From a virus: a stretch of 34,156 bases of DNA. Below are positions 6,196 through 27,447 of the stretch, piece after piece; position 1 is the first letter of the stretch; the number at the start of each line of letters is the position of its first letter. The stretch lies in IMG/VR virus record IMGVR_UViG_3300032249_000150, positions 1-34,156 of that record. The stretch is one strand, 5' to 3'. Below the pieces are notes generated by a model. It saw only the letters and a program-made list of their open reading frames with translations, was not told where the DNA came from and did no database searches. A program made the translations under genes and the position numbers.

Positions 6196-6632
6196 TGGAT
6201 CTGATTGGTATTGGGTCAATCATTGAAGGCGTTGGCAAAGTTGCGGATTCGCTCATCACGACGGATAAAGAACGCATGGAGATGGCGCTGGAGGAGCGCA
6301 GGCTTGACCTTGAGGAAAAGAGGATTGACCAGACAACCGACTTGGCTCAGGTCGAAGTCAATATGGTTGAAGCAGCAAATCCTAGCGTATTTGTCTCTGG
6401 CTGGCGCCCTGCTGTTGGGTGGGTTGGGGTTCTTGGCTTGGGTTATCAGTTCTTAGGATATCCTCTGATGCAGTGGTGTTGGACTTTTGGTCAAGGTTAT
6501 GACATAATTCCTAAAGAGCTAACCCCGCCCCCGGATCTTGACGTTGAGCAACTCATGACGCTGCTCGCAGGTCTCCTCGGTTTTGGTGGTATGCGCTCAT
6601 TTGAGAAGCACAAGGGTGTAGCGAGCAAGTAA
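6195..6632 (+). CDS. Holin of the 3TM (GTA holin) family
   Basis: This 145-residue protein matches the 3TM holin family known from gene transfer agents and proteobacterial phages. An N-terminal charged helix contains the 'LEERRLDLEEKRIDQ' type heptads (about residues 30-50). It is followed by 'SGWRPAVGWVG' and a hydrophobic stretch to 'PLMQW' (about 68-95), then a last hydrophobic segment 'LMTLLAGLLGFGGMRSFEK' near the C-terminus. Holins form the inner-membrane lesion that sets lysis time and frees the endolysin. It directly follows the muramidase and overlaps the next gene by one base (TAATG). No spanin pair could be identified nearby. Confidence 0.85.
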   Translation: MDLIGIGSIIEGVGKVADSLITTDKERMEMALEERRLDLEEKRIDQTTDLAQVEVNMVEAANPSVFVSGWRPAVGWVGVLGLGYQFLGYPLMQWCWTFGQGYDIIPKELTPPPDLDVEQLMTLLAGLLGFGGMRSFEKHKGVASK

Positions 6633-8488
6633 TGCCACTCAAGAAACTTCAGCTTCGTCCCGGTGTAAATAAAGAGAACACCCGCTACGCCAACGAAAAC
6701 GGTTGGTACGATAGCGATAAGGTTCGGTTCCGCCAAGGCGCACCCGAGAAGATAGGGGGTTGGGTGCGTATCTCTACAAATACATTCTTAGGTGTTTGTA
6801 GGTCGCTGTGGAACTGGGTAACACTTGCCAAACAAAACCTTATTGGGTTAGGGACCCATCTTAAATTTTATATTGTAGACGGGGGTGCGTACTATGATAT
6901 TACCCCGCTTCGCGCTACTACGACTCTTGGTACTGATCCGTTTCTGGGTAACGGTACGACAGTTACGGTTACCGCTGCATCTCACGGCGCAATCACTGGA
7001 GATTTTGTTACGTTTAGTGGGGCTACGGGCGCGTACGCGAGCACGTTAAACGCTGAGTTTCAAGTCACAGTTATAAATTCTAACTCGTACACAATCACTG
7101 CCGCTGTCCCTGCTCCGGCAACTGGCGGCTCTGCTGTTGTAGCAAGGTATCAAATTACTGTTGGCGCTCCTATTCAAGCCCCAATAGGTGGATGGGGTGC
7201 GGGTATTTGGAACTCGGGTACTTGGGGTGTTGGTAGCGGATCAGCTAATGCTTCATTAAGACTTTGGAGTCAAGGTAATTTTGGAGAAGATTTAATTTTT
7301 GGCCCCCGTGGGGGTGCGATGTATTACTGGGATGCAAGTGTGGGGGCCGGTACACGCGGCGTTTTGTTATCGTCTCTTCTTGGGGCGTCAGATGTGCCCA
7401 CCGTACAAAACTTAGTTTATGTATCCGATAACCGGTTTGTTTTTGCGTTTGGCTGTAATGATTATGGGCTCGTAGCGCAAAATCCAATGCTTATCCGGTG
7501 GTCTGACCAAGAAGATCCTGCAAACTGGACTGTTTCTGCTACCGGTCAGGCGGGAAGTCTAACTCTCGCTCACGGCTCTGAAATTATTACAGCAGTCCAA
7601 ACCCGCCAAGAGACGATTGTATTTACAGACTCCGCTATCTATTCTTTGCAATATTTGGGCTTACCTGCGGTATGGGGGTCGCAGATTCTTGGCGATAACA
7701 TCTCTATCATAAGTCAAAACGCCGCTATTGTTGCGTCCGGTCGAGTGTTCTGGATGGGGGTTGATAAGTTCTACGTGTACGACGGTCGGGTTAATACACT
7801 AAACTGTGACTTGCGTAAATATATCTACCAAGATATTAATCTTAGCCAAGAACAACAGATTTTTTGCGGCACAAACGAAGGGTTTAATGAGGTCTGGTGG
7901 TTCTACTGCTCTAAAAATTCTACCGCTATTGATCGATACGTGGTGTATAACTACATTGAAAATGACGGTAAGGGTGGTATAGGCGTTTGGTATCACGGCT
8001 CGTTGGCTCGCACCGCATGGTTAGACTCCGGACTACTTGAATACCCCATAGCTGCTACTTACAGTTACAACCTCGTGAACCACGAACTTGGCGTGGATAA
8101 TGATGAGACGGGGACCATACTACCAATTACAGCGTACATTTCTTCATCCGAGTTTGATATTGAAGATGGTGATAAGTTTGGTTTTGTCTGGCGCATGTTG
8201 CCCGATGTGACGTTTGAAGGGTCGACCTCGGCCAACCCATCTGCTGTAATGACATTAATCCCTATGCAAAACTCGGGGTCGGGATATAACGTCCCTCAAT
8301 CTGTTGCCGGAAGTAGCTCTGCCACGGTTACACGCACCGCTACTGTGCCTATTGAGCAGTTTACGGGGCAGGTATATATCCGGGTGCGGGGTCGTCAGAT
8401 GATCATAAAAATGGAATCAACTGGTGAAGGGGTGTTTTGGCAGTTGGGGCACCCACGACTCGATATTCGTGAGGACGGGAGGCGATGA
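6632..8488 (+). CDS. Tail hub / packaged-DNA stabilisation protein, P22 gp10-like
   Basis: This 618-residue virion protein starts 'MPLKKLQLRPGVNKENTRY' and continues 'GWYDSDKVRFRQG..EKIGGW'. This opening is typical of a widespread podovirus family related to the P22 gp10 tail accessory (DNA-stabilising) protein. The main body has recurring beta motifs such as 'LIRWSDQEDP.NW', 'FTDSAIYSLQYLG', 'VFWMGVDKFYVYDG' and 'NEVWWFYC', fitting the propeller-like body of gp10. A Gly/Thr-rich insert at about residues 100-175 ('HGAITGDFVTFSGATGAY') resembles an E1_FCCH-like beta domain seen in phage proteins. gp10-type proteins attach to the head-tail connector and stop DNA leaking out. Its position just before the presumptive ejection proteins fits. 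Family assignment is by recalled similarity. Confidence 0.65.
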   Translation: MPLKKLQLRPGVNKENTRYANENGWYDSDKVRFRQGAPEKIGGWVRISTNTFLGVCRSLWNWVTLAKQNLIGLGTHLKFYIVDGGAYYDITPLRATTTLGTDPFLGNGTTVTVTAASHGAITGDFVTFSGATGAYASTLNAEFQVTVINSNSYTITAAVPAPATGGSAVVARYQITVGAPIQAPIGGWGAGIWNSGTWGVGSGSANASLRLWSQGNFGEDLIFGPRGGAMYYWDASVGAGTRGVLLSSLLGASDVPTVQNLVYVSDNRFVFAFGCNDYGLVAQNPMLIRWSDQEDPANWTVSATGQAGSLTLAHGSEIITAVQTRQETIVFTDSAIYSLQYLGLPAVWGSQILGDNISIISQNAAIVASGRVFWMGVDKFYVYDGRVNTLNCDLRKYIYQDINLSQEQQIFCGTNEGFNEVWWFYCSKNSTAIDRYVVYNYIENDGKGGIGVWYHGSLARTAWLDSGLLEYPIAATYSYNLVNHELGVDNDETGTILPITAYISSSEFDIEDGDKFGFVWRMLPDVTFEGSTSANPSAVMTLIPMQNSGSGYNVPQSVAGSSSATVTRTATVPIEQFTGQVYIRVRGRQMIIKMESTGEGVFWQLGHPRLDIREDGRR

Positions 8489-8814
8489 ATTACCTTGTCA
8501 CTGCTGATGACGTGCTAACTCAGGCCGTTGCACCTAACTTACCGCTTCCCCCAAACGAATACGAACGGCGTTATTTTGACCAACTAACTAACATCTTGCG
8601 GTTGTATTTTAACCAGCGCGACAAGATTATCGGGCAACTAAAAGCCGACGTACCAGTAACAGTAGCTAACCTACCCAGTGCAGCAACCGCAGGTGTTGGG
8701 GCTAGAGCGTTTGTAACGAATTCTTCTGTGTCCACATTTGGCACCACGGTAGCCGGTGGCGGGTCAACTAAAGTGCCTGTGTATTCAGACGGCACTAACT
8801 GGAAAGTGGGTTAA
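8485..8814 (+). CDS. Small virion-associated protein
   Basis: This 109-residue protein has a helical N-terminal half ('YERRYFDQLTNILRLYFNQRD') and a C-terminal tag reading 'LPSAATAGVGARAFV' and 'KVPVYSDGTNWKVG'. The tag is a common module at the ends of phage fibre and virion proteins, though its exact function is not settled. The gene overlaps the gp10-like gene by four bases (ATGA) and ends one base before the next start. This context makes it a co-translated accessory of the tail hub or of the first large virion protein. Confidence 0.65.
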   Translation: MNYLVTADDVLTQAVAPNLPLPPNEYERRYFDQLTNILRLYFNQRDKIIGQLKADVPVTVANLPSAATAGVGARAFVTNSSVSTFGTTVAGGGSTKVPVYSDGTNWKVG

Positions 8815-8815
8815 A

Positions 8816-11800
8816 ATGGCGCGAAATTACGAAACCGAGTACAACCGATCCCTAGAACCGGGCGATATCGAATCTGATACCGTAGATAGCCGCACCCGAT
8901 ATGCGCCTATTATAGAGGGCACCGCCGCTGCCGATGCAGATCGTGCGACATGGAACACCGGATATGAAACCCTTAAAAAACAGATGGGTGCGCTCCAAGG
9001 GCAAACAGATGTATACAAACGCCGGTCGCCGTTAGATGCTAACACTCATATTCACAATATTGCTAAATCTTTAGCAAAAGATTACGGCGTTACTAGTATT
9101 GGGGATATCGGTGTAAGGTACGAAACTCGCCCTGCTTATGAGACAGGTAGCGACGAATCAGCAACAATAATCCCAGAACAACAAGTACCAATATACTATA
9201 ACAAAAAAGACCCTTCTAAAATAATTCCCGGCTATAAGTTTGCTTCTGAAGGCAAGGGCGACGGGTATAGCGACTACAACCTTCAGCCGGTCCGACAGGC
9301 TGACGGCTCGACAATTGTTGTGCCGATTCAGCAATACAGCAAGTCTGGAATGGGCGCGTTTGTAGAAGATCTTGGGCCGATAATACAAGTTGCTAGTCTG
9401 GTTGCGATGGCGGCTGGCGCTCCTCCGCTTTATGTAGGCGCTGCTAATCTCGGGCTACAAGGTGCTGCTGGAAACATTGACGACTTTAATGACGCGCTTA
9501 GAATTGCCGCACCATACCTTATCCCTGCTGGGCTTCAAGGTTTAGATATAGTTGGGCCATCTACGGCTTCAACGGTTGCGGGGCGTGTTGCTGAAAATTA
9601 TGGTGGTATTGCCGGGTTAACTGGCTTTGCAGCCGATGTCGTTGGCAGCGCGCTTTCAGATGCTGCTGCGGCTGGCCTAGCTGGTGGCGACGTCGGTGCG
9701 AGTGCTTTGGGTGGTGCGGCATCGCCGCTAATATCTGCCGGTATTAAAAGTGTGGCATCAGGTGCCAAAGACGCCTATAAAGGTTTAACCGGATTTAACT
9801 TTGACGCAGACTTATACGATATAGGCGGTAGCGCCCTAGAAAATTTTGGCCCCACTACTACCGACATTAATGCTGGAGCAATTAATTTAGCAAACACGAC
9901 TGATGAGCTTGATGATTTAGTTGGCGGGCTAAACAAACTAGACGACTCAGCCGCAAACAATCTTTTTGGGAATTTGACTGATGCCGACTTAGATGACCTC
10001 TATGGCTCCACTGCGCCGAATACTGGTGCGGTGACAAGCGGGGTTACGCTCGGTTCAATAGATTCAAAAGAACTAACTGATCTTCCTGTCAATACTATGG
10101 CCGAGAATAATTTAGTTACAGGAAATTTGACTGATGCCGACTTAGACGAACTCTATGGCTCCACTGTGTCGAATGCCAGTGCTGGAAGTGGTAAGACTGT
10201 AGAAGATCTTTATAGCATGGATGCAAATCGAGGAAATACCGGCGACACTATTTACACAGATAAAAACGGCGATTCGTATTTTGTTGACGATAACGGCGAT
10301 GTCCAATCTCTTACTAAAGGGCAAGCTGATACCTTACTAACTACTGATATCGCAGAAAATACGGGTCTCAAGCTTGACCCGGTTGAAATTGAGGGTAAAT
10401 TAGACTCTAATCTTGGGTACGATTGGGCGGAAGACATAACCAAGCTCACAGAAGATACGGGGCTTAAACTTGACCCTGTTACGATTATAGGTAAATTAGA
10501 TCCTAATCTTGGGTACGATTGGGAGGAAGACACAACCCTTACCGAGTTTGGTCCAACAACTAGCGATCTTACTGCGCTGGACACAAAAAATGTTAGGTCG
10601 CTCACAACCGGTGATTTTGCTGGGCTCACAACTAGCAACTTAACTACGCTAGACACAAAAGATACCGGAGGGCTCACAGCTACTCAAATTGGATTACTAA
10701 CGGCTGTCGGTACTGGGGTATTAGTGTCTGATGTAGTAGGTGGAAAAGATACTAAGAGTATTACTACGCTCGATAGTAAAGGTGTCACTACGCTCGACTC
10801 TAAGGGTGCTACTACGCTCGATAGTAAGATTATCACTACGCTTGATAGTAAAAATATCACTACGCTCGATAGTAAGATTATCACTACGCTCGATAGTAAA
10901 GGTGTCACTACGCTCGATAGTAAGGATGCCACTACGCTCGATAGTAAAACTATTACTACGTTGACCACGATGGACCCATTGGGGTTGAAAGGTATTGCGG
11001 ACCCGGCAAACCGATTCTGGAACCAAACTGGTGCAACGGGTACGGGTGGTCAAGGTGGGGTGCGGTTCTTTGAATGGACAACCAACCCAGTACCGGTTAT
11101 GGGCGGGTCTAACATGGAGGCGGCAAAATCGCTCATCCCTGCTTTTACTTCCGCACAAGTTCAAGCTATGGCTGCTCCCACCCCTAAACAATACTTTAAC
11201 GCGGCAACAAACCGGTACTACACAGACCCCACCGGACAAGCAACACCCCCTGCCGGATTTGTGCAAAAAACTTTTAAGGATGGTGGCGAAGTGAAAACCA
11301 AACATTTTGATAACGGTGGTTTTAGTTTTGCCGATTTTGATTTGGATATAAATCCTTACAAATTTGCTGATTTTGATTTAGGTGTTGATTTTAGCGATAT
11401 TGATTTTAGCGGGCCTGACTTTAGCAACTTTAATTTCGCCGATTATGACTTGGGGATAGATCTTGGGTCTAGTGGGCTTAATTTCGCCGATTATGACTTG
11501 GGGATAGGCTCCAATACAATGTCTGACGCGGACGTTAATCAGTATCTACGCGACCTTCCTAGTGATAACGCCAGCTACGGCGATTACGACCGCACAGCAA
11601 GTTATCAACAAGACATCAGAAATGCCGCATCCGGTTCAAGTGCGCTTTCTGGTGTAGCTAAAACGGTTGTAGACAAACTTGCGGGTATGGGGGCTAAACT
11701 CACCGAGAGCGCTCTGAGGTCAATTGAAAACAACCCCGGTGCGTGGCTGGCGGCTCTTGCCGGTGCGGGATTAGGCTACGCCGCGTCAAGAAACAACACG

Positions 11801-12178
11801 ATGGCGCCGATAGGCTTGCAAAATTTGGGCATAACACAGCAGCAGGTCTATAACACGCTTAAAGGCGGTAACTACGTTGGCAAAGCTACGGGTGGCGAAA
11901 TTCCCGGGTACGGTGCAGGTGGTGGTTTGCACTACCTCAAAAGCGCCGAAGATGGCATGGCCGACAAGATTCCTGCTACTATTGACAATAAGCAACCGGC
12001 TCGGCTAAGCGGTGGAGAGTTTGTGATCCCTGCTGATGTCGTATCCCATCTAGGCAACGGTAACTCTGAAGCCGGGGCTAAACAACTTTACGAGATGATG
12101 GACCGCATCCGTCGCGCTCGCACCGGCAACAAAGAGCAGGGCAAGAAGATCAATCCGGCTAAGTTCACGCCGAAGTAA
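8816..12178 (+). CDS. Large repeat-containing virion (probable ejection or internal) protein
   Basis: This 1120-residue protein is probably a structural or internal virion protein. The C-terminal 60 residues ('GLHYLKSAEDGMADKIPATI', 'ARLSGGEFVIPADVVSHLGNG', 'YEMMDRIRRARTGN') are a conserved ending found in many environmental phage virion proteins. Residues about 180-330 form an Ala/Gly-rich stretch with hydrophobic helices that could insert into membranes. The middle contains paired 'TDADLD.LYGS' and 'LGYDW.ED' repeats, a tandem 'TTLDSK' array and 'FADYDLGI' repeats. An in-frame ATG at 8756 lies inside the previous gene and lacks support, so the ATG at 8816, one base after the upstream stop, is chosen. 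The order after a gp10-like hub fits the ejection proteins of podoviruses; this is inference. Confidence 0.65.
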   Translation: MARNYETEYNRSLEPGDIESDTVDSRTRYAPIIEGTAAADADRATWNTGYETLKKQMGALQGQTDVYKRRSPLDANTHIHNIAKSLAKDYGVTSIGDIGVRYETRPAYETGSDESATIIPEQQVPIYYNKKDPSKIIPGYKFASEGKGDGYSDYNLQPVRQADGSTIVVPIQQYSKSGMGAFVEDLGPIIQVASLVAMAAGAPPLYVGAANLGLQGAAGNIDDFNDALRIAAPYLIPAGLQGLDIVGPSTASTVAGRVAENYGGIAGLTGFAADVVGSALSDAAAAGLAGGDVGASALGGAASPLISAGIKSVASGAKDAYKGLTGFNFDADLYDIGGSALENFGPTTTDINAGAINLANTTDELDDLVGGLNKLDDSAANNLFGNLTDADLDDLYGSTAPNTGAVTSGVTLGSIDSKELTDLPVNTMAENNLVTGNLTDADLDELYGSTVSNASAGSGKTVEDLYSMDANRGNTGDTIYTDKNGDSYFVDDNGDVQSLTKGQADTLLTTDIAENTGLKLDPVEIEGKLDSNLGYDWAEDITKLTEDTGLKLDPVTIIGKLDPNLGYDWEEDTTLTEFGPTTSDLTALDTKNVRSLTTGDFAGLTTSNLTTLDTKDTGGLTATQIGLLTAVGTGVLVSDVVGGKDTKSITTLDSKGVTTLDSKGATTLDSKIITTLDSKNITTLDSKIITTLDSKGVTTLDSKDATTLDSKTITTLTTMDPLGLKGIADPANRFWNQTGATGTGGQGGVRFFEWTTNPVPVMGGSNMEAAKSLIPAFTSAQVQAMAAPTPKQYFNAATNRYYTDPTGQATPPAGFVQKTFKDGGEVKTKHFDNGGFSFADFDLDINPYKFADFDLGVDFSDIDFSGPDFSNFNFADYDLGIDLGSSGLNFADYDLGIGSNTMSDADVNQYLRDLPSDNASYGDYDRTASYQQDIRNAASGSSALSGVAKTVVDKLAGMGAKLTESALRSIENNPGAWLAALAGAGLGYAASRNNTMAPIGLQNLGITQQQVYNTLKGGNYVGKATGGEIPGYGAGGGLHYLKSAEDGMADKIPATIDNKQPARLSGGEFVIPADVVSHLGNGNSEAGAKQLYEMMDRIRRARTGNKEQGKKINPAKFTPK
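10760..10963 (+). repeat. 24-bp tandem repeat array (8 units plus partial)
   Basis: Eight tandem 24-bp units and a half unit encode (I/V/A)TTLDSK(G/I/N/D/T), eight residues per unit. Copies differ mainly at the base or two encoding the variable residue, so the DNA has expanded recently or is kept uniform by recombination. Since 24 is a multiple of three, gain or loss of units keeps the frame. The array also keeps other frames open, which produces false ORFs on both strands. Confidence 0.9.
11325..11510 (+). repeat. Imperfect 'F(A/S)D(F/Y)DLGI' repeats
   Basis: At least five imperfect copies of an Asp/Phe-rich unit (FADFDL, FADFDLGV, FADYDLGI and similar) occur in frame in the large virion protein. 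The last two copies, at about 11425-11460 and 11479-11510, share an almost identical DNA stretch beginning ttcgccgattatg. Confidence 0.75.
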
Positions 12179-12187
12179 GGAAAAACC

Positions 12188-13621
12188 ATGAGCATTCGAT
12201 ACTTTGACGCGGGTGGCGCAACTACAACCCCTGCTGCAACCGGTGCGACAGAAACTACTGTATCGAACTGGGCTGCGCCAGTCGTTGGTGGCATTATACA
12301 GCGGGGGCTTGAGATTGCAGGTCAGCCATATCAGGTATATGGTGGTGCTCAAGTTGCCGGTTCTTCCGACCTTCAGAACAAAGCGTTCTCAGGTATCCAA
12401 GGACTAACGCAGCCAAATGCAACGCAAAATAACGCTGCGACCAACATGCAAAATGTATATCAGTCTGCTATGACGCAGCCGGGATACGCAGGTACGGATT
12501 TTAGTAAGGCAGGTAGTGCGCTCAATCAAGCCTCATATGCCGGAGGCCAAGATTATACTAGCGCAGGTAAGGCAATAGGTCTACCCGGATACATGAGTAC
12601 GGACCTTACTAAAATTGGCGTTGCGTCCAATCAAAACCCATATGCTGGTACGATGTTTACATCGAACACAACGGGGATTAACAATCAGTTTGGTCAAGAT
12701 AATCTTAACCAATACATGAATCCGTACCTGTCTACGATCCTCAATCCTCAGATTGAAGAAGCTCGGCGTCAAGCGCAAATTACGCAAGCGCAAAACAACG
12801 CTAAGATGACGCAAGCCGGAGCGTTCGGTGGTGGCCGACAAGCAATTTTAAACGCAGAAACGCAACGTAATCTAGGAACCAACCTTGCCGACATCACCGG
12901 TAAAGGGTACAACACCGCATACACTCAAGCCCTAGGGCAATATAACGCCGACCAAAACCGGTTGATGGATGCGTTAAGAGCCAGAGAGCAATCTAGTCAG
13001 TTTGGGTATGCTAAAGACGCGGAGCGTCTTGCTGGTGATAGAAACGCATTGCTTGAAGCAGCAAAAACTAGAGAACAAGCTAGTCAGTTTGGATACGCTA
13101 AAAACGCAGAACGCCTTGCTGGTGATAGGACTGCACTTCTCGATTCATTGAGAGCCAAAGAGCAATCTAATCAGTATGGTTATAGTAAAGATGCTGAACG
13201 CCTCGCTGGTGATAGGACTGCACTTCTTGATTCATTAAGAGCCCAAGAGCAATCTAATCAATTTGGGTCCAATCAAGGGCTTAATTATCTTAGAGAAGCC
13301 GGAAATATTGCACAGAGCCAAGGTACATTCGGTAACCAGCAACAGCAATTAGGACTTAGCGCAAACAAACAACAAGCTGATCTTGGTGCCATTCAGCGCG
13401 ACATTACCCAAGAAGGTTTGACTTCTGATTACAACATGTGGAAAGAGCAGCGGGATTACCCCAAGACGCAAGTTGACTACTTAAACAATTTGATCAAGCA
13501 ATACCCAATGACCACCACTAACACGTACGGTCAAGCTGGAAACACTGCTGCTGATATGTTTGGCGGGATGATTACGGCGATGTCGGCGTACGATATTCTG
13601 TCTGGCAAGAAAAAACCTTAA
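12188..13621 (+). CDS. Virion protein with 29-residue helical repeats
   Basis: This 477-residue protein is probably a structural or ejection component. It opens 'MSIRYFDAGG', has a region rich in Gln, Asn, Tyr and Gly with 'QPGYAGTDFSKAG' type repeats, then a helical core ('ILNPQIEEARRQAQITQAQNNAKM...GGRQAILNAETQRNLG'). Next is a run of three to four 29-residue repeats (residues about 266-360) reading 'REQSSQFGYAKDAERLAGDR.ALL'. The start is supported by AAGGAAAAACC at 12177-12187. It lies 9 bases after the 1120-residue gene and 9 bases before the 649-residue gene, all in one transcription unit. I recognise the general family from environmental phage virion gene clusters but cannot name it. 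No enzyme motif is visible. Confidence 0.6.
   Translation: MSIRYFDAGGATTTPAATGATETTVSNWAAPVVGGIIQRGLEIAGQPYQVYGGAQVAGSSDLQNKAFSGIQGLTQPNATQNNAATNMQNVYQSAMTQPGYAGTDFSKAGSALNQASYAGGQDYTSAGKAIGLPGYMSTDLTKIGVASNQNPYAGTMFTSNTTGINNQFGQDNLNQYMNPYLSTILNPQIEEARRQAQITQAQNNAKMTQAGAFGGGRQAILNAETQRNLGTNLADITGKGYNTAYTQALGQYNADQNRLMDALRAREQSSQFGYAKDAERLAGDRNALLEAAKTREQASQFGYAKNAERLAGDRTALLDSLRAKEQSNQYGYSKDAERLAGDRTALLDSLRAQEQSNQFGSNQGLNYLREAGNIAQSQGTFGNQQQQLGLSANKQQADLGAIQRDITQEGLTSDYNMWKEQRDYPKTQVDYLNNLIKQYPMTTTNTYGQAGNTAADMFGGMITAMSAYDILSGKKKP
12983..13264 (+). repeat. 87-bp tandem repeats (29 residues)
   Basis: In-frame units of 87 bp begin at 12983, 13070 and 13157, with a partial fourth at 13244. Each encodes '.EQS.QFGYAKDAERLAGDR.ALL' with few changes. 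Repeats of this length predict an extended helical rod. Copies two to four are closest to each other ('TALLDSLRA'). Confidence 0.85.
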
Positions 13622-13630
13622 AGGCGTGTT

Positions 13631-15580
13631 ATGTCGATTATTGGATCATCTCTTGAGGCTGTTCGGCGTGACCTGAAGTACATGCCGACTCAAACGCTTA
13701 TTCAATATAAGCAGAACCCGGCAAAAAACGCCGTTGATGGTATCCCGTTGGACATGCTCGCTGGGCTGGAGTTGAGTCGTCGCGCCCAAATGCAGAACGA
13801 GCTATCCGCTGCCGGTGCCCAAAACGCAGCAAATATGCCTACCGTTATTGATGCTGCTGCACAACAATTGACTGGTCAGCCGCCCCCCGCACCACCTCCT
13901 GCACCACCACAAGGTGCCCCACAACCCGCGCCTCAACCACCTCAACCACCTCAACCACCTCAACCACCTCAACCACAACAAGTTGCGCCGCAGCCACCGA
14001 TGCCTCAAATGCAGCAGGGGCCACAAGGTGGGTTGCCGACTGTAAACAAAGCACAGGGTGGGTTTATTATTGACAGCCCTGACGACTTGTACAACTTAAT
14101 CAACGGAAAGCGCGACCGCCTTAAGACAGAGGGGTACGCTGGTGGTGGGGTCATTGCGTTTGCTAACAGGGGTGAAGTGCCGAACGCATATTCCGGATAT
14201 GAAAATGTTATACCGGAAAGACTTAGATCAGAACGGGCTGACGAACCCCCTGAAGGTTATGGACTAGTTGATCCCCGTGCGTATCCGCGCAAGGAAAAGA
14301 AAAAAGAAGAAAAAAAAGACAAACCTGTAGAGGATTCGGCTGCAACACCGCCACCACCACCTCCGCCGCTCTACGGCATCGAACCGCCATCACAGAGCGC
14401 TTTGACGCAAGGATTGTATAACTTACTGCGAACACCGTCAGGCGGCGGGGGTAGGCCCAGTTACAAACCTTTAGGTATCAAACCACCGGAAATGCCAGAC
14501 CGGTCGGTAGCAGAAGCTGAAATTAGAGGATTGGCAAACGAGACCGCCGAAGAAACAAACGCGCGACTTGGACTAAAGAACTTCGCTGCGGACCTAGAGA
14601 GACGCAAATCGCCGTATATGTCGGACATAGATAAAGCGGCTATGGAGGAAGCGCAATTTAAAAAACGGCAGGAAATTTACAACCCAGTAAACGCAGAAAC
14701 ACAAAGAATTATTGATGAGCGCAAAGCTGCACTGGAAGAACGGCGTGGTCGGCGTCTGTCTGAAGCCGGACTGCAACTTGGTCTGGGTATGTTAGGCGGT
14801 CGCGGAAGCCTTGCCAGCATTATTGGTGGTGCAGGTAGGCAAGCTGTCGGCGCATATCAGAAGAGTCAGGAGCTTGACGACGCGCAGCAAGAGCGTATTC
14901 AGGATATGAACCTGAAACAGCAGCAAGCGCTGGCTGCTCAAAAAGCCGGGAACATGGACCTTGCGTACCAGCGTACCCGTGAAGCTCAGGCCGATAAACT
15001 TGCTATCGACAACTACGAGATTGCCAAACAAAGAGACGTTCTTACAGCGCAGCAAAAAGCTGCTGATATTTCCGGAAACGTCCGTGGTCGCCAAATGACC
15101 GCAGAGGTCAATCTTGATAAGGTTCAAACCGCGATTGCTAAAGCAGAGATGGGCGTCAACATGGCCCTCCAGTTGGCTGAGGCTAAGAACGCTATGCAGT
15201 ATGAACTCGCGGCTTTACGGTCAGCTAACGCCGATCTGGGTCGTCAGATGCAGTTGCTAACACTCATAAACAGAATCGAAGAAAGCCAACGCAAAGCCGC
15301 TTTGGGGCAGATACCCGAGCTAGGAGCGCGAGTACAAGCTGAAAAGCTAATAGACTCAAAATACCCAGACAACTCTACGGCGTTAAATTCTGGTATTGCT
15401 GGTCTAAAAGGGGGTCAACAGTTGCTGGCTGACTACCAACGTGATCCTAACGGAACTAGAACGGCGTACGACAACGCAGCGCAGATTGTGCGAACTAACG
15501 CATTAAGAAAATTAATTTCTGAAACTCGGACGCCCGGCGCTCCTATGGATCTAGGTTCGGCTTATAAAGCTACGGAATAG
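13631..15580 (+). CDS. Virion protein with Pro-rich spacer and long coiled coil
   Basis: This 649-residue protein is probably an internal virion protein. After an N-terminal helical part it has a Pro/Gln spacer at about residues 85-135 (PPAPPPAPPQ and QPPQPPQPPQ runs). A 'GYAGGGVIAFANRGEV' motif near residue 170 is a common type in phage ejection proteins. A Lys/Glu block (KEKKKEEKKD) follows near residue 220. The last 300 residues are Ala/Gln/Lys/Glu-rich and predicted coiled coil ('LAAQKAGNMDLAYQRTREAQ'). The start has AAAGGCG upstream at 13619-13625. It ends 5 bases before the giant gene. The architecture, with a rigid spacer and long helices, suits proteins that leave through the tail on infection, but this is inferred from position and composition. 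Confidence 0.6.
   Translation: MSIIGSSLEAVRRDLKYMPTQTLIQYKQNPAKNAVDGIPLDMLAGLELSRRAQMQNELSAAGAQNAANMPTVIDAAAQQLTGQPPPAPPPAPPQGAPQPAPQPPQPPQPPQPPQPQQVAPQPPMPQMQQGPQGGLPTVNKAQGGFIIDSPDDLYNLINGKRDRLKTEGYAGGGVIAFANRGEVPNAYSGYENVIPERLRSERADEPPEGYGLVDPRAYPRKEKKKEEKKDKPVEDSAATPPPPPPPLYGIEPPSQSALTQGLYNLLRTPSGGGGRPSYKPLGIKPPEMPDRSVAEAEIRGLANETAEETNARLGLKNFAADLERRKSPYMSDIDKAAMEEAQFKKRQEIYNPVNAETQRIIDERKAALEERRGRRLSEAGLQLGLGMLGGRGSLASIIGGAGRQAVGAYQKSQELDDAQQERIQDMNLKQQQALAAQKAGNMDLAYQRTREAQADKLAIDNYEIAKQRDVLTAQQKAADISGNVRGRQMTAEVNLDKVQTAIAKAEMGVNMALQLAEAKNAMQYELAALRSANADLGRQMQLLTLINRIEESQRKAALGQIPELGARVQAEKLIDSKYPDNSTALNSGIAGLKGGQQLLADYQRDPNGTRTAYDNAAQIVRTNALRKLISETRTPGAPMDLGSAYKATE
13864..13985 (+). 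repeat. Pro/Gln-rich low-complexity tract
   Basis: A run of imperfect 9-bp units (cctcaacca) encodes repeated Q-P-P within the 649-residue virion protein, next to a PPAPP tract. It leaves the antisense strand open, which explains the spurious Leu/Arg/Trp-rich reading frames there. Confidence 0.8.
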
Positions 15581-15585
15581 TAAAC

Positions 15586-18500
15586 ATGCCAGTAATTAAT
15601 GTACCCAATCTTGGGCCGGTTAACTTTCCGGACTCGATGCCGCAAGATGAGATCAAGGCACGGTTTACAGATCTTGCACAACGCGCCGCAGCTAAGTTTG
15701 AGTACAAGCCAGACTACCGGGAACTAGGTCTTGGGCAGCTAATCAAGGGCGGGTTTAACCGCTCGATGTCCGCGATTGGTAGTGCTGTTACAGACGTTGC
15801 CCCTGCGATGATCGGTTCGGCTCTGGGGTACGAGGATTACGCTAAAGAGCAAATGGCCGAGGCGGCGGCAAAGCGCCAGCGTGCAGAGCTTGAGAACCCG
15901 ACAGGATTCCGGTCGTATAAAGAAATTCGCGGCCCGGGTGATTTTGTTGGTTACGCAGCCGAGACTCTTGGCGAACTTGGTCCTGATATTGGAGCCATGT
16001 TAGTCCCCGGTGGGGTTGGTAGTGCAGTCGGTAGGCGTGTTGCTGTGCGTGGTGCAGCCGAAGCTGCTGGCGCTCGCGCTGCCGAATCAGTCGCGGCTAA
16101 AGGTCTTGCAGGTGATGCGGCTGAAGCCTACACAAAACGTCTTACTGATGCGGCCACAAGGCAAGCTGGGCGTGCTGGTGCCGATACTGGCCTAAATGTA
16201 GGTATGTATGGTGGGGCGTACGGTCTTAACGCGCCGGATACGTTTGAGGGTATCTACGAAAAAACGGGCGAGTTTCGCCCCGGTATCGCTGCAACTTTCG
16301 GCGCTGCAATAGCGGCTCTTGATACTGTACTACCAAGCTACCTGCTAAAGCAACTTAGCCCTGCTGCTAAGGGTAAGCTGGCATCTGAGCTTGTTAATCG
16401 GTCAAGCATTGTTGAACCGTCCATTAAAGCCGGTATCGCTAAGAGCGCCAGTAAAGCTGCGCTTGGTGAAAGCGGTACAGAGGTTTTGCAAGAAAGTCTG
16501 GGCATCCTCGCTGAAAAAACCGCTGGTGCTTCCGGTGAGTTCTTTTCACCTGAGAACGTAGACCGACTTATAAATTCTGGCTTAAAGGGCGCAATCGGCG
16601 GCGGTGTACTCGGCGTTCCCGGTGGTGTTAGAGAAGCCTATGTCGAGCGCGATGCCGCGCGTGCAGAGATCGCACGGCGTGAAGGACTGCCTTCTGAAAC
16701 TCCTAAAGCTCCACCCCCTGCCGGACCAGTTGACTATGACCGCCCTGCGGTTATGCGCCGCCCAGATTATGTCGCTCAGCCCGGGTTGCGTGAGACTCCG
16801 TTGCCTGAAGCTGATCCAAACCAGCTTGATATGTTCCCGGGCGAGAAAGCTCGATTCAGTCTTGATGAGGTGCGTGCAGCCCGTATTCCTGAGCCGGGGT
16901 CGAGTCTGGTCGAGAATATTGAGGTTGCCAAACTTAAACTTGGCCGTGGGGACGAGCTAACTAACGGCGAGATTCAACTTCTAGTTGACAATAAACTTGT
17001 TACATCGACAGAAGCCGAGAACCTTCCAAGAGCCGAGGAAGAAGTCGCACCTCCTGAAGTGTTGCCGGGACAGCAGACGTTGCCGGGGATGTCGGTCCCT
17101 GAGTTGGCGTTTAGAGAGGCGGCATTTGCCGACACCATTACGCAGCCAGAGCTACCGCTTACTCGGCCAATCACGTCCCGTTTAGGTGCCGCGCCGCCAC
17201 CGCAACAAGAGCAACCGGCCCCACCCCCTGCACCAGAACGTGGAGAGCAGCCTGAGCTTGACCTTATGGGCGGGCGTACGGGTGAGCAACTAAAATTCTG
17301 GAATGCAATCGACAAAGCCGAACGCGGCGGTGATGTACCGCTTCCGTTTCCCGGGATGCCGATCAGAGGTGAGGACTTGCGACGGAGGCTTGAAGGCCGA
17401 CCTGAACCCAAGTCCGATGAACGCGCTAACGTAATTAGCCCTGAAGTTCTTGCTGCGCTTGGCGTTACGCCGCAGATGCCAGCCCATAAGCGCACGGTTG
17501 GTAAGAGCTTAGATGACCCGCAAGAACGTGAGCAGGTTGCCAGCGCATTTCGTGGTTTGGCTAAAAATAAACAAGTACCACAAGAAACCCGGGACAAGCT
17601 CACGGCTATCCTGAAAAGCCCGCTGTTCGCTACTCAACCGGAGCTTAACTTTGAAGCACCCCCAGCAACCCCAACCCCCAACGTACCTGTCACTCCACCA
17701 AGTGGAACAGGCCCTAGCGTACCTAGCGGACCCGGACCGGTCGTACCCACCGAAGGAATTGCAACACCTCCAGCTACCGGAGTGGAAACAACTGAACCAC
17801 CTGCTACACCAACTGGAGTGGGAGCGACAGAACAACCCGGTGCAGTAGAAGCGCCGGAACAACCGGCACCGATGGATCTCGGCACTGCCCTGCGCGGCAA
17901 GCCTCGGTCAGAAGAAGCGGCGGCACAGGAACAAGAAGATCTTAACAAGTCATTAGAAGAAACTGGCGAAGGTACTTTCCGCGCTGAACCGGGCGCAAAT
18001 ATGGGCCGGATGGCAAACCTGTTAGGTCCGCAGTTGTACGGCAGCATGTCGCAGATTGCCCCGATTACTGTTAAGGAGATGTTCCAAAACGCGTTTGATG
18101 CAATTAAAGATGCTTTGGTGGTAAGCGGTTTGGCCGAAGGAAAGATCAGTGTAAATACTGATGAGGACAAGCGCACGATCACCATAACTGATAACGGTAT
18201 GGGCATGACGCCCGAAATTATCAGCAAGGCGTTTTTGACGATTGCGGGTACGCACAAAGAATCAGGTCGTCCATCTGGTAGCTTTGGCGTTGCAAAAATG
18301 CTATTCCTGTTTGGGAATAAAAATCTAAAACTGGAAACGACGCGTAACGGATTTACTAGCACATTAGAAACAACTGGCCCAGAGTTGTTAGCTGCATTCG
18401 CAGACCCAAGTAAATCACCAAACATTACCGTTGTAAAAACTGGTAAACCCCCCGGCACGTCAATAACGGTAGAGATTCCAGATACATATGTTGATGGAGA

Positions 18501-21500
18501 AGGTCAAACTAAACATATTACGTTTGGTAGTGATGAACGCACATTTAAACCAATACTACTTAAAAGCCCGCTATTAGAAAACATCGAAGTTAAATTTAAT
18601 GGCGAAGTATTACCAATCGGCAAAAATTTTCCGGCAAACGATTTCACCGTACTTACAAACGTAAAGTTTCCGTGGGGTAATGCGCGTATATTAGTTAAAG
18701 ATGGCGCTGACGTTAGATACAACGGGCACAATTTAATTGTCTTGTCCCAAGGGCTTTATCAGTTTGGGCAAACTTTAAACGACGCTCCGGGTTGGAACGG
18801 AAACCTGTTGCCGTTTACGTTCTTTATAAACATAGAACCTACAGCACTAGCTGACAGCGCCAACTACCCGTTCTCGCTTAACAGGCAAGATTTTTCCCCG
18901 TCGCAAAAACCGGGCGTTGAAAAGATCTTTTCGTACCTTCAGGCGTTATACACAAACAAAACTACGGCTGAATCCGCGCAGAGTTTTGGGAAGCTAGAAC
19001 TACTATCACCGTCCAGAAAACCGACTTCAACTATGATTGATCTGGCTGTGCCGCCAGCACAAAAAGGCACCATCCTCGAAATTGATCCGGCTGATAAAGT
19101 CGAAGTTAAAGACGGGAAGATGTATGTCAACAACCGATTGATTCCGGAGCTTACACCTCAAGCTCTTGAGACGATGCGTGCTGACCCATCGCAATTCAAA
19201 GTCGACCAAGACCTGATTGACTCCAATAAAATCTTAGTACACGACAACGTAGATGTTCGTGAAGATTACGATGATCCAAATTCCGACAAGGTTCCGTTTT
19301 TAGAAAGAGCACGCCGCGACCTTGGTGCAGACAGGGTAAACAAGTTTATTGTTGGTATTGGTAACGTCTTTAAGTTTCTTCGTAATGAATCGTATGGGGC
19401 AGGGGTAAAAGGTTGGGGGAATTTAAATAAATATGAAACTGTCACTGATGTTCCAGTTGGGGTAAGTTTTGACCCGGGGTATTACGGTGTAAGTATCCGA
19501 TTACCGTTTATGGGTATGATGATTAACCCCACGGTCATCAAAAAGATTGACAGTGCCGATACTAGCTCAGCAGATGTTCGTGCTGACGCGGCTGCTACAA
19601 TGGTCGGTACAATGGTGCATGAAATTGCGCACCACGACGAACGGAACCACAGTGAGAGCGGGTTCATCCCGGCGTTGCAAAATCTGGCGGTGCGTCTTGC
19701 AATATCTGGGTCAACACAAGAAGCCGTTAGAGACCTGATAAAAGTTTTTAGCGCGGACGTTGACGTACTTACTTATTTCTTAAAGGCTGGTGATGGAAAT
19801 CTCACAAATCGTGGAATCAAGTTGGAAGGTGCCGCATCCGAAAGGGAGAGCGCGGGGGGCGCAAGCGTTCCTCAACGGTCTACTCGCCCCAGCACTTCAG
19901 GAGGGGATGGAAACGTCAGCCCCGGAGTACGTCAAGCAACTCCAACTGGCGGTAGACCTAGCGCCCCAAGCCCGAAGCCCGCAGCAACACCTGCAACTCC
20001 TCAACCAAGCGCTATCGCAGCGGCGGTCAGAGGAACCGGCACGGTCAACGCAAACGTCGCCAACGCAGCGGTCGACCCCAAAGGCAAGTCAGCAGTAGAG
20101 CTTCTAGACTCGTTTACACAAGCGCTGACCAAGCTGCCGTTCATTACGCAGCAGCGTGCAGATGCAATCAATCAGTTCTTACGGGATACCGTAGACACGG
20201 CTGGCCGGTCGTTCTTGTTGATGTCGATGCCGCTAAACGCGTTGACCGAGGTGGCCGAACGCTACCTACCCGGTGCAAAACAAATCGCCATGCTCGACCG
20301 GCTTAAGTCAGGCGATGAGTACGCTCGCAATAAGATGATTGAGCCTGTGGTGCTTGCAGCGGAAAAGTGGGCTGCGAAGTTTCCTAAGCTGGTTGATGCG
20401 TTCAACCGAACCGTATACCGCAGCACGATTGCCGGGGTCGACCCGAGCAAACCGGAATCCTTCTACTACGATAAGCCCGGACTGCCAAAGCTGGATAAGG
20501 ACGGCAACGATCTAGCCGAAGCATGGAGAGATCTCCAAGAAGACTACAAGGCTCTTGGTCCGGGCGGTCAGAAGTTATACGCCATGATGCGCGATACGTA
20601 CGCGTCCATGTACGAAGAGATCAAACAAGCAATTGTTGAAAAGATCTCAGCAACAACTGACAACAAAGACCTTGCTAAAAAGATTAGTGGCGAGGTACTT
20701 GCAAAGCTGGCGGCTAAGGGCGGTCTCGATCCGTACTTCCCGCTGACCCGTTACGGTAACTTCTGGGTTTCGTATAAAACCAAGGGTGGTCCCAAACTGG
20801 GACAAGCAGATTTTTTCATCCGTGCCTTTGAGACGGAAGTTGAACGCGAACGGTTTATCAAAACCCTTGAAGCTACCGATGAGATTGCACCCCGGACCAG
20901 CGTAGATGAAAACGGTAAGACGATCACAGAACCACCAATCCAAAGGTTCTCGCAGATTTCTGAGATAAGCTACAAGAACACCCCAGCAAACTCGTTCGTA
21001 AACGGCGTGTTGCAGGTCATGGAGGTTAACAAGGTTCCGGAAGATGCCAAAGAGCAAATCCTCCGCCTGTTCTTGTCGACCCTACCAGAAACATCTTTTG
21101 CCCAAGCGTTTCAGAAACGGGGTAACGTCGCTGGTTTTGAGCATGACGCAATCCGTGCGCTGCGCGAGAAGTCGTTCAGTATGTCCCGGCAGTTGTCTAA
21201 CATGAAGTACGCGTACAAGCTCATCAGTGCACGTGATGACTTGCGTAAAAATGTTAAGGCGATGGGTAAGGGCGAGGGCGCAACGGATAACCGGATCGCC
21301 AAAGAATACTTTGACGAGATCGATAAGCGGGTCAAGTTCATCATCAGCCCAGAGACGTCAAAGCTGTCGCAACTACTGACTTCTTTCGGCTTCACCTACC
21401 TGCTCGGCTTTAACGTCTCGTCTGCGGTCATCAACCTGACCCAAGTGCCGCTGATCGTGTTGCCGTATCTCGGCGGTAAGTACGGGTTCTCGGAGACAAC

Positions 21501-23028
21501 CAAGGCACTCGGCAACGCCTATAAGGTGTTTGCAAATACCGGCATCAAAGAAACCGCGATCCTTGAGTTTAAGGATGAGAACGGCAAAGACGTAAAGGTC
21601 AAGTCCCGGGCCATGCCGTCTATCGAGAACCTTGATCCCGAGTCGGATCTGGGTAAGCACTATAAAGAACTTATTGATGAAGGCGTATTGCAGGGGCAAC
21701 TCAACCGGTCGGCGCTCTACGACATCCTCGACGTTAGTGGTGCAAAGAATCCGTTGACGGTTGCAAATGCCGCATCGGGCTGGATGTTCCACCATGCCGA
21801 ACGTATGAACCGGCAGATCTCGTTAATGGCGACATACGATCTTGAGTTAGGTAAGATCAAGAACCCCACGATAGAAGATAAGGTTGCCGCTGCTAAACAA
21901 GCTATCTACGTATCCGAGTTGACTAACGGCGGGACAACTGCAACCTCGGCCCCACGTATTGCGCAAGGCAGTATCGGTCGGGTGCTGTTCATGTTCAAGC
22001 GGTACGGCGCGTCTATGTACTACCTGCTGGCTAAGAACTTTAACGAAGCCATCCGTGCCGGTCAGTATGAGCTTGACGGGTTGAAGGCTGAGCTTGCCAA
22101 AACCAAAGATGCGGCTGAGATCACTAAACTCAAAAAGCAAATCGCCGAAGCCGAAGAACTTGCAAAAGTAAACCGGGGAATTGCTCGTCGGCAACTGGGC
22201 GCGACTTATGCTTCTGCCGCGCTGTTCTCTGGGTTGCAGGGGCTACCGTTGTTCGGGGTGCTTTCCGTTATCTACAACATGTTTGCTGATGACGACGATG
22301 ACGACATGGCGACCGCCGTACGTAAAGGAACCAATGAATTCTTCTACAAGGGTCTGGTCAACGCTCTGACCAACATGGACGTAGCGTCCCGCGTAAGCCT
22401 GACCGGCCTGATCATTCGGGATAACAAACTATCGTCCGGATCGCAGACAGTAGCGGAAGCGTTCGGTGATCTTATGGGCGGTCCAGTGTACGGTATAGCG
22501 ACCAAAGTCGAACGCGGCGTTAATCAAATCCGTGACGGGCATATCGAACGTGGGGTTGAAAACATACTTCCTTCGGCGCTTAGTAACGTGTTAAAGGGCT
22601 TTCGCTACGCCACATCCGGCACGACCACGTTGCGCGGCGATGCTATCACTGGTGATGTCAACCCAGCGAATGCGATTGCTCAGGCGTTTGGCTTTGCACC
22701 TGCCGATTACACCCGTCAGTTGGAGATCACTGCGCGTGAGAAGGGCATGGACAAGGCAGCGACTGCTGACCGTACCAAGTTCCTCAATAACATGTATATC
22801 GCCAAGCGGTTCAATGACACCGAAGGTGTTGCCGATGCCCGTGCAGATCTTGAGAAGTTGTATGAGAAGCACCCCGGCTTTAAGAAGTTCGGCACGCTGG
22901 ACGAAACTATCGCGCGGTCGATGCGGCAGCACGCGCTGACTACAGAACAGATGAAACCGTTTGCCGGTGTGACCATCAGCAAGGCCATGCGCGATGAGAT
23001 CTTGCAGGATATGCGCGAGTTTGAGTAA
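15586..23028 (+). CDS. Giant polyvalent virion protein with GHKL ATPase and zinc-peptidase-like motif
   Basis: This 2480-residue protein starts 'MPVINVPNLGPVNFPDSMPQ'. Residues about 110-350 are Ala/Gly-rich with hydrophobic helices. Pro-rich linkers follow (about 470-560 and 688-765). Then comes a GHKL ATPase: N box E831...N835/D838, D869-N-G871-M-G873, a glycine lid around G898-S-F-G901 and G957-T958. A zinc motif HEIAHHDERNH (H1345, E1346, H1349, H1355) has HExxH plus a third His at metzincin spacing. After another low-complexity linker (1406-1500) the last 980 residues are helical, with hydrophobic segments near 1934-1965 and 2204-2235, a six-Asp run, and a C-terminus like the PLxRFG/LPD-type modules of phage polyvalent proteins. 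Such proteins are thought to enter the host with DNA. Motifs are seen; delivery and targets are inferred. Confidence 0.75.
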   Translation: MPVINVPNLGPVNFPDSMPQDEIKARFTDLAQRAAAKFEYKPDYRELGLGQLIKGGFNRSMSAIGSAVTDVAPAMIGSALGYEDYAKEQMAEAAAKRQRAELENPTGFRSYKEIRGPGDFVGYAAETLGELGPDIGAMLVPGGVGSAVGRRVAVRGAAEAAGARAAESVAAKGLAGDAAEAYTKRLTDAATRQAGRAGADTGLNVGMYGGAYGLNAPDTFEGIYEKTGEFRPGIAATFGAAIAALDTVLPSYLLKQLSPAAKGKLASELVNRSSIVEPSIKAGIAKSASKAALGESGTEVLQESLGILAEKTAGASGEFFSPENVDRLINSGLKGAIGGGVLGVPGGVREAYVERDAARAEIARREGLPSETPKAPPPAGPVDYDRPAVMRRPDYVAQPGLRETPLPEADPNQLDMFPGEKARFSLDEVRAARIPEPGSSLVENIEVAKLKLGRGDELTNGEIQLLVDNKLVTSTEAENLPRAEEEVAPPEVLPGQQTLPGMSVPELAFREAAFADTITQPELPLTRPITSRLGAAPPPQQEQPAPPPAPERGEQPELDLMGGRTGEQLKFWNAIDKAERGGDVPLPFPGMPIRGEDLRRRLEGRPEPKSDERANVISPEVLAALGVTPQMPAHKRTVGKSLDDPQEREQVASAFRGLAKNKQVPQETRDKLTAILKSPLFATQPELNFEAPPATPTPNVPVTPPSGTGPSVPSGPGPVVPTEGIATPPATGVETTEPPATPTGVGATEQPGAVEAPEQPAPMDLGTALRGKPRSEEAAAQEQEDLNKSLEETGEGTFRAEPGANMGRMANLLGPQLYGSMSQIAPITVKEMFQNAFDAIKDALVVSGLAEGKISVNTDEDKRTITITDNGMGMTPEIISKAFLTIAGTHKESGRPSGSFGVAKMLFLFGNKNLKLETTRNGFTSTLETTGPELLAAFADPSKSPNITVVKTGKPPGTSITVEIPDTYVDGEGQTKHITFGSDERTFKPILLKSPLLENIEVKFNGEVLPIGKNFPANDFTVLTNVKFPWGNARILVKDGADVRYNGHNLIVLSQGLYQFGQTLNDAPGWNGNLLPFTFFINIEPTALADSANYPFSLNRQDFSPSQKPGVEKIFSYLQALYTNKTTAESAQSFGKLELLSPSRKPTSTMIDLAVPPAQKGTILEIDPADKVEVKDGKMYVNNRLIPELTPQALETMRADPSQFKVDQDLIDSNKILVHDNVDVREDYDDPNSDKVPFLERARRDLGADRVNKFIVGIGNVFKFLRNESYGAGVKGWGNLNKYETVTDVPVGVSFDPGYYGVSIRLPFMGMMINPTVIKKIDSADTSSADVRADAAATMVGTMVHEIAHHDERNHSESGFIPALQNLAVRLAISGSTQEAVRDLIKVFSADVDVLTYFLKAGDGNLTNRGIKLEGAASERESAGGASVPQRSTRPSTSGGDGNVSPGVRQATPTGGRPSAPSPKPAATPATPQPSAIAAAVRGTGTVNANVANAAVDPKGKSAVELLDSFTQALTKLPFITQQRADAINQFLRDTVDTAGRSFLLMSMPLNALTEVAERYLPGAKQIAMLDRLKSGDEYARNKMIEPVVLAAEKWAAKFPKLVDAFNRTVYRSTIAGVDPSKPESFYYDKPGLPKLDKDGNDLAEAWRDLQEDYKALGPGGQKLYAMMRDTYASMYEEIKQAIVEKISATTDNKDLAKKISGEVLAKLAAKGGLDPYFPLTRYGNFWVSYKTKGGPKLGQADFFIRAFETEVERERFIKTLEATDEIAPRTSVDENGKTITEPPIQRFSQISEISYKNTPANSFVNGVLQVMEVNKVPEDAKEQILRLFLSTLPETSFAQAFQKRGNVAGFEHDAIRALREKSFSMSRQLSNMKYAYKLISARDDLRKNVKAMGKGEGATDNRIAKEYFDEIDKRVKFIISPETSKLSQLLTSFGFTYLLGFNVSSAVINLTQVPLIVLPYLGGKYGFSETTKALGNAYKVFANTGIKETAILEFKDENGKDVKVKSRAMPSIENLDPESDLGKHYKELIDEGVLQGQLNRSALYDILDVSGAKNPLTVANAASGWMFHHAERMNRQISLMATYDLELGKIKNPTIEDKVAAAKQAIYVSELTNGGTTATSAPRIAQGSIGRVLFMFKRYGASMYYLLAKNFNEAIRAGQYELDGLKAELAKTKDAAEITKLKKQIAEAEELAKVNRGIARRQLGATYASAALFSGLQGLPLFGVLSVIYNMFADDDDDDMATAVRKGTNEFFYKGLVNALTNMDVASRVSLTGLIIRDNKLSSGSQTVAEAFGDLMGGPVYGIATKVERGVNQIRDGHIERGVENILPSALSNVLKGFRYATSGTTTLRGDAITGDVNPANAIAQAFGFAPADYTRQLEITAREKGMDKAATADRTKFLNNMYIAKRFNDTEGVADARADLEKLYEKHPGFKKFGTLDETIARSMRQHALTTEQMKPFAGVTISKAMRDEILQDMREFE

Positions 23029-27161: not shown

Positions 27162-27447
27162 AAGCGTCTTTATCGGTTGCAAACGTAAAATCGAACTCCA
27201 TCTGCACAGGCTCAGCGGGGTCGATAGTCTCTGCTTCAGCCAAGGCCGGTGCAGTTTTCTCGCTCAGCGTTTTGGCACGGAGCGCGGCATCCACATCAGC
27301 GATGCGGAACCTATATGTGTTACCAATCTTCAGGTAAGCCGTGGGTGGAATTACATCCTTCCGTAGCCAACCACGAACGGTAGACACAGAAACGGTGTAA
27401 TACTCCGCGACCTCTTCAATCGAAACGTATTTAGCAATCTCATCCAT
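27160..27447 (-). CDS. Helix-turn-helix (MerR/excisionase-like) DNA-binding protein
   Basis: This 95-residue protein has a clear N-terminal helix-turn-helix of the MerR/excisionase (HTH_17) type: 'VSIEEVAEYYTVSVSTVRGWLRK' followed by 'YLKIGNTYRFRIADVDAAL', about residues 8-58. The C-terminal 35 residues are acidic and Ala-rich. Proteins of this class bind short DNA sites as regulators or recombination directionality factors; with no integrase in view, a regulator or replication accessory is more likely. It overlaps the coiled-coil gene upstream by 8 bases and precedes the SSB-like gene by 7 bases. The nearest upstream SD-like sequence is weak, so translation may depend on coupling. Confidence 0.75.
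   Translation of the reverse strand: MDEIAKYVSIEEVAEYYTVSVSTVRGWLRKDVIPPTAYLKIGNTYRFRIADVDAALRAKTLSEKTAPALAEAETIDPAEPVQMEFDFTFATDKDA

Follow-up and report, generated by a model that had tools for sequence, protein, structure and literature searches.

The virus sequence analysed here encodes a giant protein in which a predicted GHKL ATPase is followed by a zincin-like metallopeptidase domain, and this ATPase-zincin pair looks like a real, selected functional unit within the polyvalent-protein network. The pair recurs in ~50 clusters of relatives from uncultured phages with its predicted catalytic residues unchanged; for this reason, it is probably a functional enzyme that acts as infection begins. 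An earlier note on this DNA had described a polyvalent protein combining a GHKL ATPase with a zinc-peptidase-like motif, and because the pair is conserved in 50 clusters, that claim is now supported more strongly than the sequence alone allowed. The window, meaning the whole stretch of DNA analysed, is a 34,156-base virus sequence from IMG/VR, possibly a fragment.

The giant protein and its gene neighbourhood

The late cluster runs in the order tail-fibre-like gene, endonuclease VII, endolysin, holin, virion structural protein, ejection-protein homologue, 649-aa protein and giant. The open reading frame and the gene order bear out the earlier description of a 2480-residue chain closing the virion gene cluster, and the replication cluster lies opposite, on the other strand. 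The genes ahead of the giant, and the parts of the giant outside its ATPase-zincin module, are as follows.

6632..8488, + strand: virion structural / phage stabilization protein (phrog_3287, E 1.5e-63; best relatives annotated stabilization protein)
8756..12178, + strand: 1140-aa protein; a homologue of its last ~100 residues lies ahead of the giant in 55 of 70 loci
12188..13621, + strand: 477-aa protein related to DNA ejection proteins (phrog_4287, E 2.2e-7)
13631..15580, + strand: 649-aa protein directly upstream of the giant (open reading frame; homologue found ahead of the giant in just 4 of 70 loci)
15586..23028, + strand: giant polyvalent protein, 2480 aa (open reading frame and translation; ATG at 15586, stop ending at 23028)
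15586..16917, + strand: N-terminal region, residues 1-444, starting MPVINVPNLGPVNFPDSMPQDEI, then Gly/Ala-rich stretches (sequence)
16918..17970, + strand: Pro/Ala/Glu-rich linker, residues 445-795 (sequence)
19846..20175, + strand: Ser/Pro/Gly-rich linker, residues 1421-1530 (sequence)
20197..20664, + strand: LPD39, residues 1538-1693 (Pfam PF18858, E 2e-16)
20731..22059, + strand: PLxRFG domain, residues 1716-2158, including PYFPLTRYG (NCBIfam NF032893, E 2.5e-109)
22162..23013, + strand: C-terminal tail common to DarB-like antirestriction proteins, residues 2193-2476 (phrog_10089, E 1.2e-52)

Among the 70 loci with enough sequence, 63 had an ejection-protein homologue upstream of the giant and in the same orientation, and a primase-helicase gene was convergent downstream in 59 of 91 cases. 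The 649-aa protein, for which Pfam and PHROG gave no match, is a possible ejection partner of the giant. Only the last ~70 to 110 residues of the 1140-aa protein match many relatives (at ~60% identity in several), the rest being undetected there; this gene therefore looks modular. Within the reverse-strand replication cluster sits a gene (27440-27838) with the PHROG name minor head protein; its position is kept in relatives, and the name may be wrong. Related structural genes were found in Pelagibacter, Roseobacter and Pseudomonas phages and in phage DSL-LC04. The last gene of the DSL-LC04 late cluster (DNA transfer protein, 1068 aa) was considered as a counterpart of the giant and rejected, as BLASTP detected no similarity between the two; the neighbour of that gene likewise had no similarity to the 649-aa protein, and the ejection-protein homologue alone matched.

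Two relatives (in L002 and L003) cover the whole length of the giant at ~91% identity. Values of dN/dS ranged from 0.07 to 0.27 across all segments, and the chain is under purifying selection; the highest value, 0.27, belongs to the linker at residues 1421-1530, the least constrained segment. Across relatives, the residues P, A, G, S, T, E and Q made up a mean of 50% of the stretch ahead of the ATPase-zincin module, compared with 42% inside it (85 relatives), and a mean of 63% of the stretch behind it. Residues 1-444 form a putative packaging or ejection part, and their start resembles that of one relative (L026) and, by eye, of several more. Short motifs recur in the N-terminal parts of the giants (IPGxGxVxFPDxMS, FVPLSE, DEEVFG, DFSDLVP, FFDxFD and YPQYNDLSD); they are swappable, some are repeated, and they may serve as tags for packaging or ejection. 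At the other end, the LPD39, PLxRFG and DarB-like matches agree with the polyvalent-like C-terminus that had been proposed, and it is in the C-terminal part only that named phages match the giant, at 21-26% identity.

The ATPase and the zincin-like peptidase

The central part of the chain contains the following features, for which conservation is given over 50 clusters.

17995..19182, + strand: GHKL (Bergerat) ATPase domain and Hsp90/TopoVIB-type transducer domain, residues 804-1199 (AlphaFold, VIA, Foldseek)
18070..18366, + strand: HATPase_c_3 match, residues 829-927 (Pfam, E 8.8e-7, 29.5 bits, cut-off 25)
18073..18099, + strand: KEMFQNAFD, residues 830-838, with E831 and N835 (K830, E831, Q834, N835 and D838 each 50/50)
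18190..18207, + strand: DNGMGM, residues 869-874 (D869, G873 and M874 each 50/50)
18274..18297, + strand: SGSFGVAK lid motif, residues 897-904 (G898, G901, A903 and K904 each 50/50)
18865..18897, + strand: YPFSLNRQDFS, residues 1094-1104, putative catalytic Arg loop of the transducer, with R1100 (Y1094, P1095 and R1100 50/50; N1099 48/50)
19258..19845, + strand: zincin-like metallopeptidase domain, residues 1225-1420 (AlphaFold pLDDT 81, folded alone; VIA; weak Pfam)
19618..19650, + strand: HEIAHHDERNH, HExxHxxxxxH zinc motif, residues 1345-1355 (H1345, E1346, H1349 and H1355 each 50/50)

The near-complete GHKL set reported before (E831, N835, D869 of DNGMGM, G898 of SGSFGVAK, and G957-T958) was found residue for residue, with G957 present in 50/50 and T958 in 49/50 clusters. 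Structure prediction had been named in the earlier note as the check on this domain, and the AlphaFold model of residues 795-1450 (pLDDT 77) has a Bergerat fold with a transducer. With this model, Foldseek matched TRAP1 (E 8.4e-12), and VIA-align matched HSP90B (Z 19.5 over 289 residues), TopoVIB (19.0) and GyrB (18.4). Because these matches extend over ~280-300 residues, both the nucleotide-binding and the transducer domains are present, the subfamilies not being separated. By its motifs and predicted fold, the giant is thus a member of the GHKL ATPase superfamily with predicted ATP binding and hydrolysis, and its ATPase is, on the model, of the Hsp90/RIIA/TopoVIB kind.

A 16-member alignment compared with solved structures placed Hsp90s at the top (TRAP1, E 1.3e-5) and TopoVIB next. 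The giant nevertheless falls far below the thresholds of the Hsp90 family proper, scoring 31.4 bits against a cut-off of 455 and 25.8 against 371 with the NCBIfam HtpG/HSP90 models, and the HtpG and TopoVIB matches in the NCBIfam scan were weak and partial. The module shares with Hsp90, HtpG and TRAP1 the ATPase and middle-domain fold and the nucleotide-site motifs; the points of difference are the lid motif GGxGxAK, the fusion to a protease and a C-terminal dimerization domain, which was not identified in the giant. Among named phages, the best match of the module was the RIIA protein of Ochrobactrum phage ZX86 (E 1e-5). The RIIA PHROG was matched by 1 of the 16 module members, and hhalign gave E 2e-7 for the RIIA profile versus 1.5e-7 for Escherichia coli HtpG. 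A specific affiliation with RIIA was dropped because Hsp90 matches equally well. Equating the R1100 loop with the SRE loop of Hsp90 and RIIA was likewise abandoned, as the two motifs stand several residues apart in hhalign and the resemblance is by eye only.

The second motif in the earlier description, HEIAHHDERNH, is present at residues 1345-1355, and an HExxH occurred in just 0.6% of shuffled copies of the giant protein. By its spacing, H1355 would be the third zinc ligand; the motif is followed by a phenylalanine, F1360, conserved in 50/50 clusters. Across 16 members, Pfam matches were all weak (YgjP-like in 13/16, WLM in 10/16, SprT-like in 5/16; best E ~1e-4), the YgjP-like and WLM scores that were seen being 16.5-22.4 bits against a curated cut-off of 26, and the polyvalent MPTase model was absent among them. 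When the zincin profile was compared with solved structures, yeast Wss1 was best (E 0.017) and aligned at the motif. Wss1 is a DNA-protein-crosslink protease. Structural comparison of the zincin alone with VIA gave Wss1 in the four top rows at Z 7.3-7.9 (best 2.4 Å over 100 residues), below Z 8, where 7.9 is a middling level by the tool's own scale. The rows that followed, most of them zinc peptidases, began with BepA and included entry 6mdw (Z 6.3), which we take to be SPRTN, the entry title naming only protease-dependent DPC repair. Foldseek with the zincin model alone returned nothing significant (best E 0.58); its main matches, to PPAR-gamma, were judged to be chance.

Three lines of evidence, none of them decisive, thus agree in suggesting that the zincin resembles Wss1, YgjP and SprT. 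With Wss1, SPRTN and YgjP it shares HExxHxxxxxH followed by F, and they supply its best structural and profile matches; it differs in scoring under the Pfam cut-offs where these were shown, and in being always fused to a GHKL ATPase in the phage giants examined. The Hsp90/RIIA/TopoVIB character of the ATPase, with its transducer, and the apparent likeness of the peptidase to Wss1, YgjP and SprT are additions to the earlier description. Extra HExxH motifs (HELLH, HEILH) occur outside the module in some relatives, near residues 1001-1011 in L018, L019 and L023 and near 2496 and 3217 in L015, and suggest a second zincin there.

Conservation of the ATPase-zincin pair

A search for phages with the same order of domains had also been suggested. 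Successive scans of IMG/VR with the module returned 7, 18 and then 105 relatives, and the zincin lay behind the ATPase in all 91 ATPase-bearing chains examined, with no case of reversed order. The 91 chains and 70 loci partly duplicate contigs (e.g., L018 and L075) and are not all independent, so the 50 clusters at 80% identity are the safer number. Over these clusters, the residues of the nucleotide and zinc sites, together with a single arginine of the middle domain, were invariant or nearly so, and A903, K904, Y1094 and P1095 were likewise present in 50/50. Distances between ATPases correlated with those between zincins (Mantel r 0.69, p 0.001).

Around this constant core, the chains vary. 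The 73 uncut chains bearing the module are 1895-4248 aa long; their C-termini sort into a single large group plus several small ones, and their N-termini into many. The shortest, an apparently complete giant of 1895 aa (L101), stops ~100 residues past the zincin and has no counterpart of the usual ~1000-residue C-terminal part. An open reading frame of 5220 aa cut by a contig end (L078, from the 5' end to about 15660) has the module and two ART-PolyVal (ADP-ribosyltransferase) matches, the better at residues 4122-4286. Other added domains are LPD22 (L085, weakly L109), LPD38 (L015 and L021) and LPD39 (the window giant and L018, weakly L028).

These features recall the polyvalent proteins surveyed by Iyer et al. 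in 2017 (PMC5512222), which are likewise giant multidomain chains in late-gene contexts with a zincin-like domain, LPD39 and a PLxRFG/DarB C-terminus, and to which the LPD22, LPD38 and ART-PolyVal additions in the relatives also correspond. By domain content and context, the giant is a member of this kind of phage protein. It differs from the surveyed proteins in its central GHKL/Hsp90-type ATPase, and its zincin differs from theirs in matching, weakly, the YgjP, WLM and SprT models. The terms GHKL, HATPase, histidine kinase, Hsp90 and gyrase have no mention in the survey's main text, to which this count refers, and an earlier listing may exist; our literature searches found no description of a GHKL ATPase paired with a zincin.

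Carriers outside the uncultured viruses were also sought. Three module sequences were searched against 50,697 phage records and revealed no isolated-phage carrier. Four un-annotated phage records of ~1.5 kb (OR849496, OR847793, OR844682 and OR844747) gave weak ATPase matches; a Listeria plasmid protein annotated as HSP90 family matched in the same range, and the four records may be bacterial sequences misassigned to phages. Plasmid matches covered only parts of the ATPase region. A cellular origin was considered and set aside: a single, pattern-based scan of genome contigs gave three matches, all alike, and the one examined (L029) resembled a cyanobacterial HtpG and had no zincin; with a scan of this kind, relatives in cells or prophages may still exist.

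Possible roles during infection

The layout of the giant's genes is the same in outline as that of the N4 virion RNA polymerase (vRNAP) operon, and we therefore infer by analogy, and from gene order, that the giant is packaged in the virion and injected. The proposal in PMC12633501 is that N4 vRNAP, with its ~3,500 residues, is the final protein to exit the virion, passing like beads on a string through a channel built by a pair of smaller ejection proteins from its own three-gene operon. N4 gp50 and the giant are both multidomain giants with a zincin domain, encoded beside smaller ejection-protein genes; gp50 has an RNA polymerase where the giant has a GHKL ATPase, and the likeness is one of layout rather than of compared sequences.

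We tentatively favor, at a little under an even chance of being right, the reading that the giant is a virion-borne polyvalent ejection protein with a core that is an ATP-gated zinc protease acting on a host protein in the new cell. On the N4 model, the giant would be packaged in the head and would enter the host along with the DNA, its folded domains strung like beads between flexible linkers, with packaging and delivery falling to the N- and C-terminal parts. The core, ~620 residues long, would work as one functional unit in which an Hsp90/RIIA/TopoVIB-type ATPase and its transducer are joined to a Wss1/YgjP-type zinc protease. We infer that the ATPase would dimerize, closing and opening with each ATP as a clamp that captures or remodels a host protein, perhaps a DNA-bound one, and hands it to the protease, which would thereby eliminate an early defence or host factor. 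The ATP-driven anti-defence or host-takeover role suggested before is plausible.

The strongest rival, which we consider unlikely but far from negligible, is self-processing: the zincin would be an autoprotease cutting the giant at its flexible linkers, either ahead of packaging or once it has been ejected, to free the ATPase module and the tail, with the ATPase gating cleavage. Pro/Ser/Gly-rich linkers do flank the module, and in the main text of PMC5512222 the survey's authors, citing P1 DdrB, predict processing of this sort by the zincin domains they describe. However, according to the same text, N4 vRNAP, ArdC and TraC1 possess a domain of this type and are nonetheless packaged or transferred at full length, and the post-zincin linker is the least constrained segment of the chain (dN/dS 0.27). 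If the ATPase were instead a built-in Hsp90-like foldase for the ejected chain or for neighbouring ejection proteins, with the zincin clearing misfolded protein, the place of Hsp90s as closest sequence relatives among solved structures would be accounted for, and ejected giants must traverse a narrow channel and then become functional (passages of PMC12633501). N4 vRNAP nevertheless manages with no such domain described in those passages, and neither an Hsp90 C-terminal dimerization domain nor a client-binding region was identified in the giant; we regard this explanation as quite improbable.

We find it very improbable that the giant is an RIIA-like counter-defence protein relocated to the virion, in which the ATPase would protect from abortive infection and the zincin would be a variable C-terminal effector. 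RIIA is described as a phage GHKL protein with a highly variable C-terminus and a link to counter-defence (PMC7824862), connected with RexAB resistance (PMC8594841), and both the named-phage match to ZX86 (E 1e-5) and the hhalign match to the RIIA profile (E 2e-7) are in line with such a descent. E. coli HtpG scored equally in hhalign, though, and RIIA is a stand-alone protein with an N-terminal ATPase (725 aa in T4, 834 aa in ZX86) that has no HExxH in either phage, whereas the phage module belongs to a late-gene giant whose zincin is invariant; RIIB was not matched among the window open reading frames scanned. More remote still is a role in assembly, as a scaffold or chaperone for virion proteins that is not itself ejected. 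The end of the late cluster is also where a morphogenesis gene would be expected, and the linkage to ejection genes and the fixed position could fit such a role equally; against it, the LPD, PLxRFG/DarB and ART-PolyVal partners are typical of proteins predicted to be injected, as set out in the main text of PMC5512222.

A broader claim, that the giants form a class of virion-delivered ATP-gated proteases, in which an Hsp90/TopoVIB-type clamp and a Wss1-like protease would strip or cut DNA-bound host proteins (e.g., defence complexes) at genome entry, and that this class is widespread among uncultured phages and unstudied, seems to us distinctly unlikely as it stands. As an arsenal that may be brought into cells by phages, polyvalent proteins are already known, though mostly from prediction. 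To them the present analysis adds a two-domain unit, a candidate ATP-driven clamp with a candidate zinc protease, which the founding survey does not mention in its main text and whose predicted catalytic residues are conserved over 50 clusters. Both active sites lie in one gene and are therefore separable by two point mutations, one per site. Should host proteins be its substrates, the module would parallel, by cutting proteins, the DarB system that protects DNA; should it be its own substrate, it would reveal how giant proteins reach their mature form when they are ejected.
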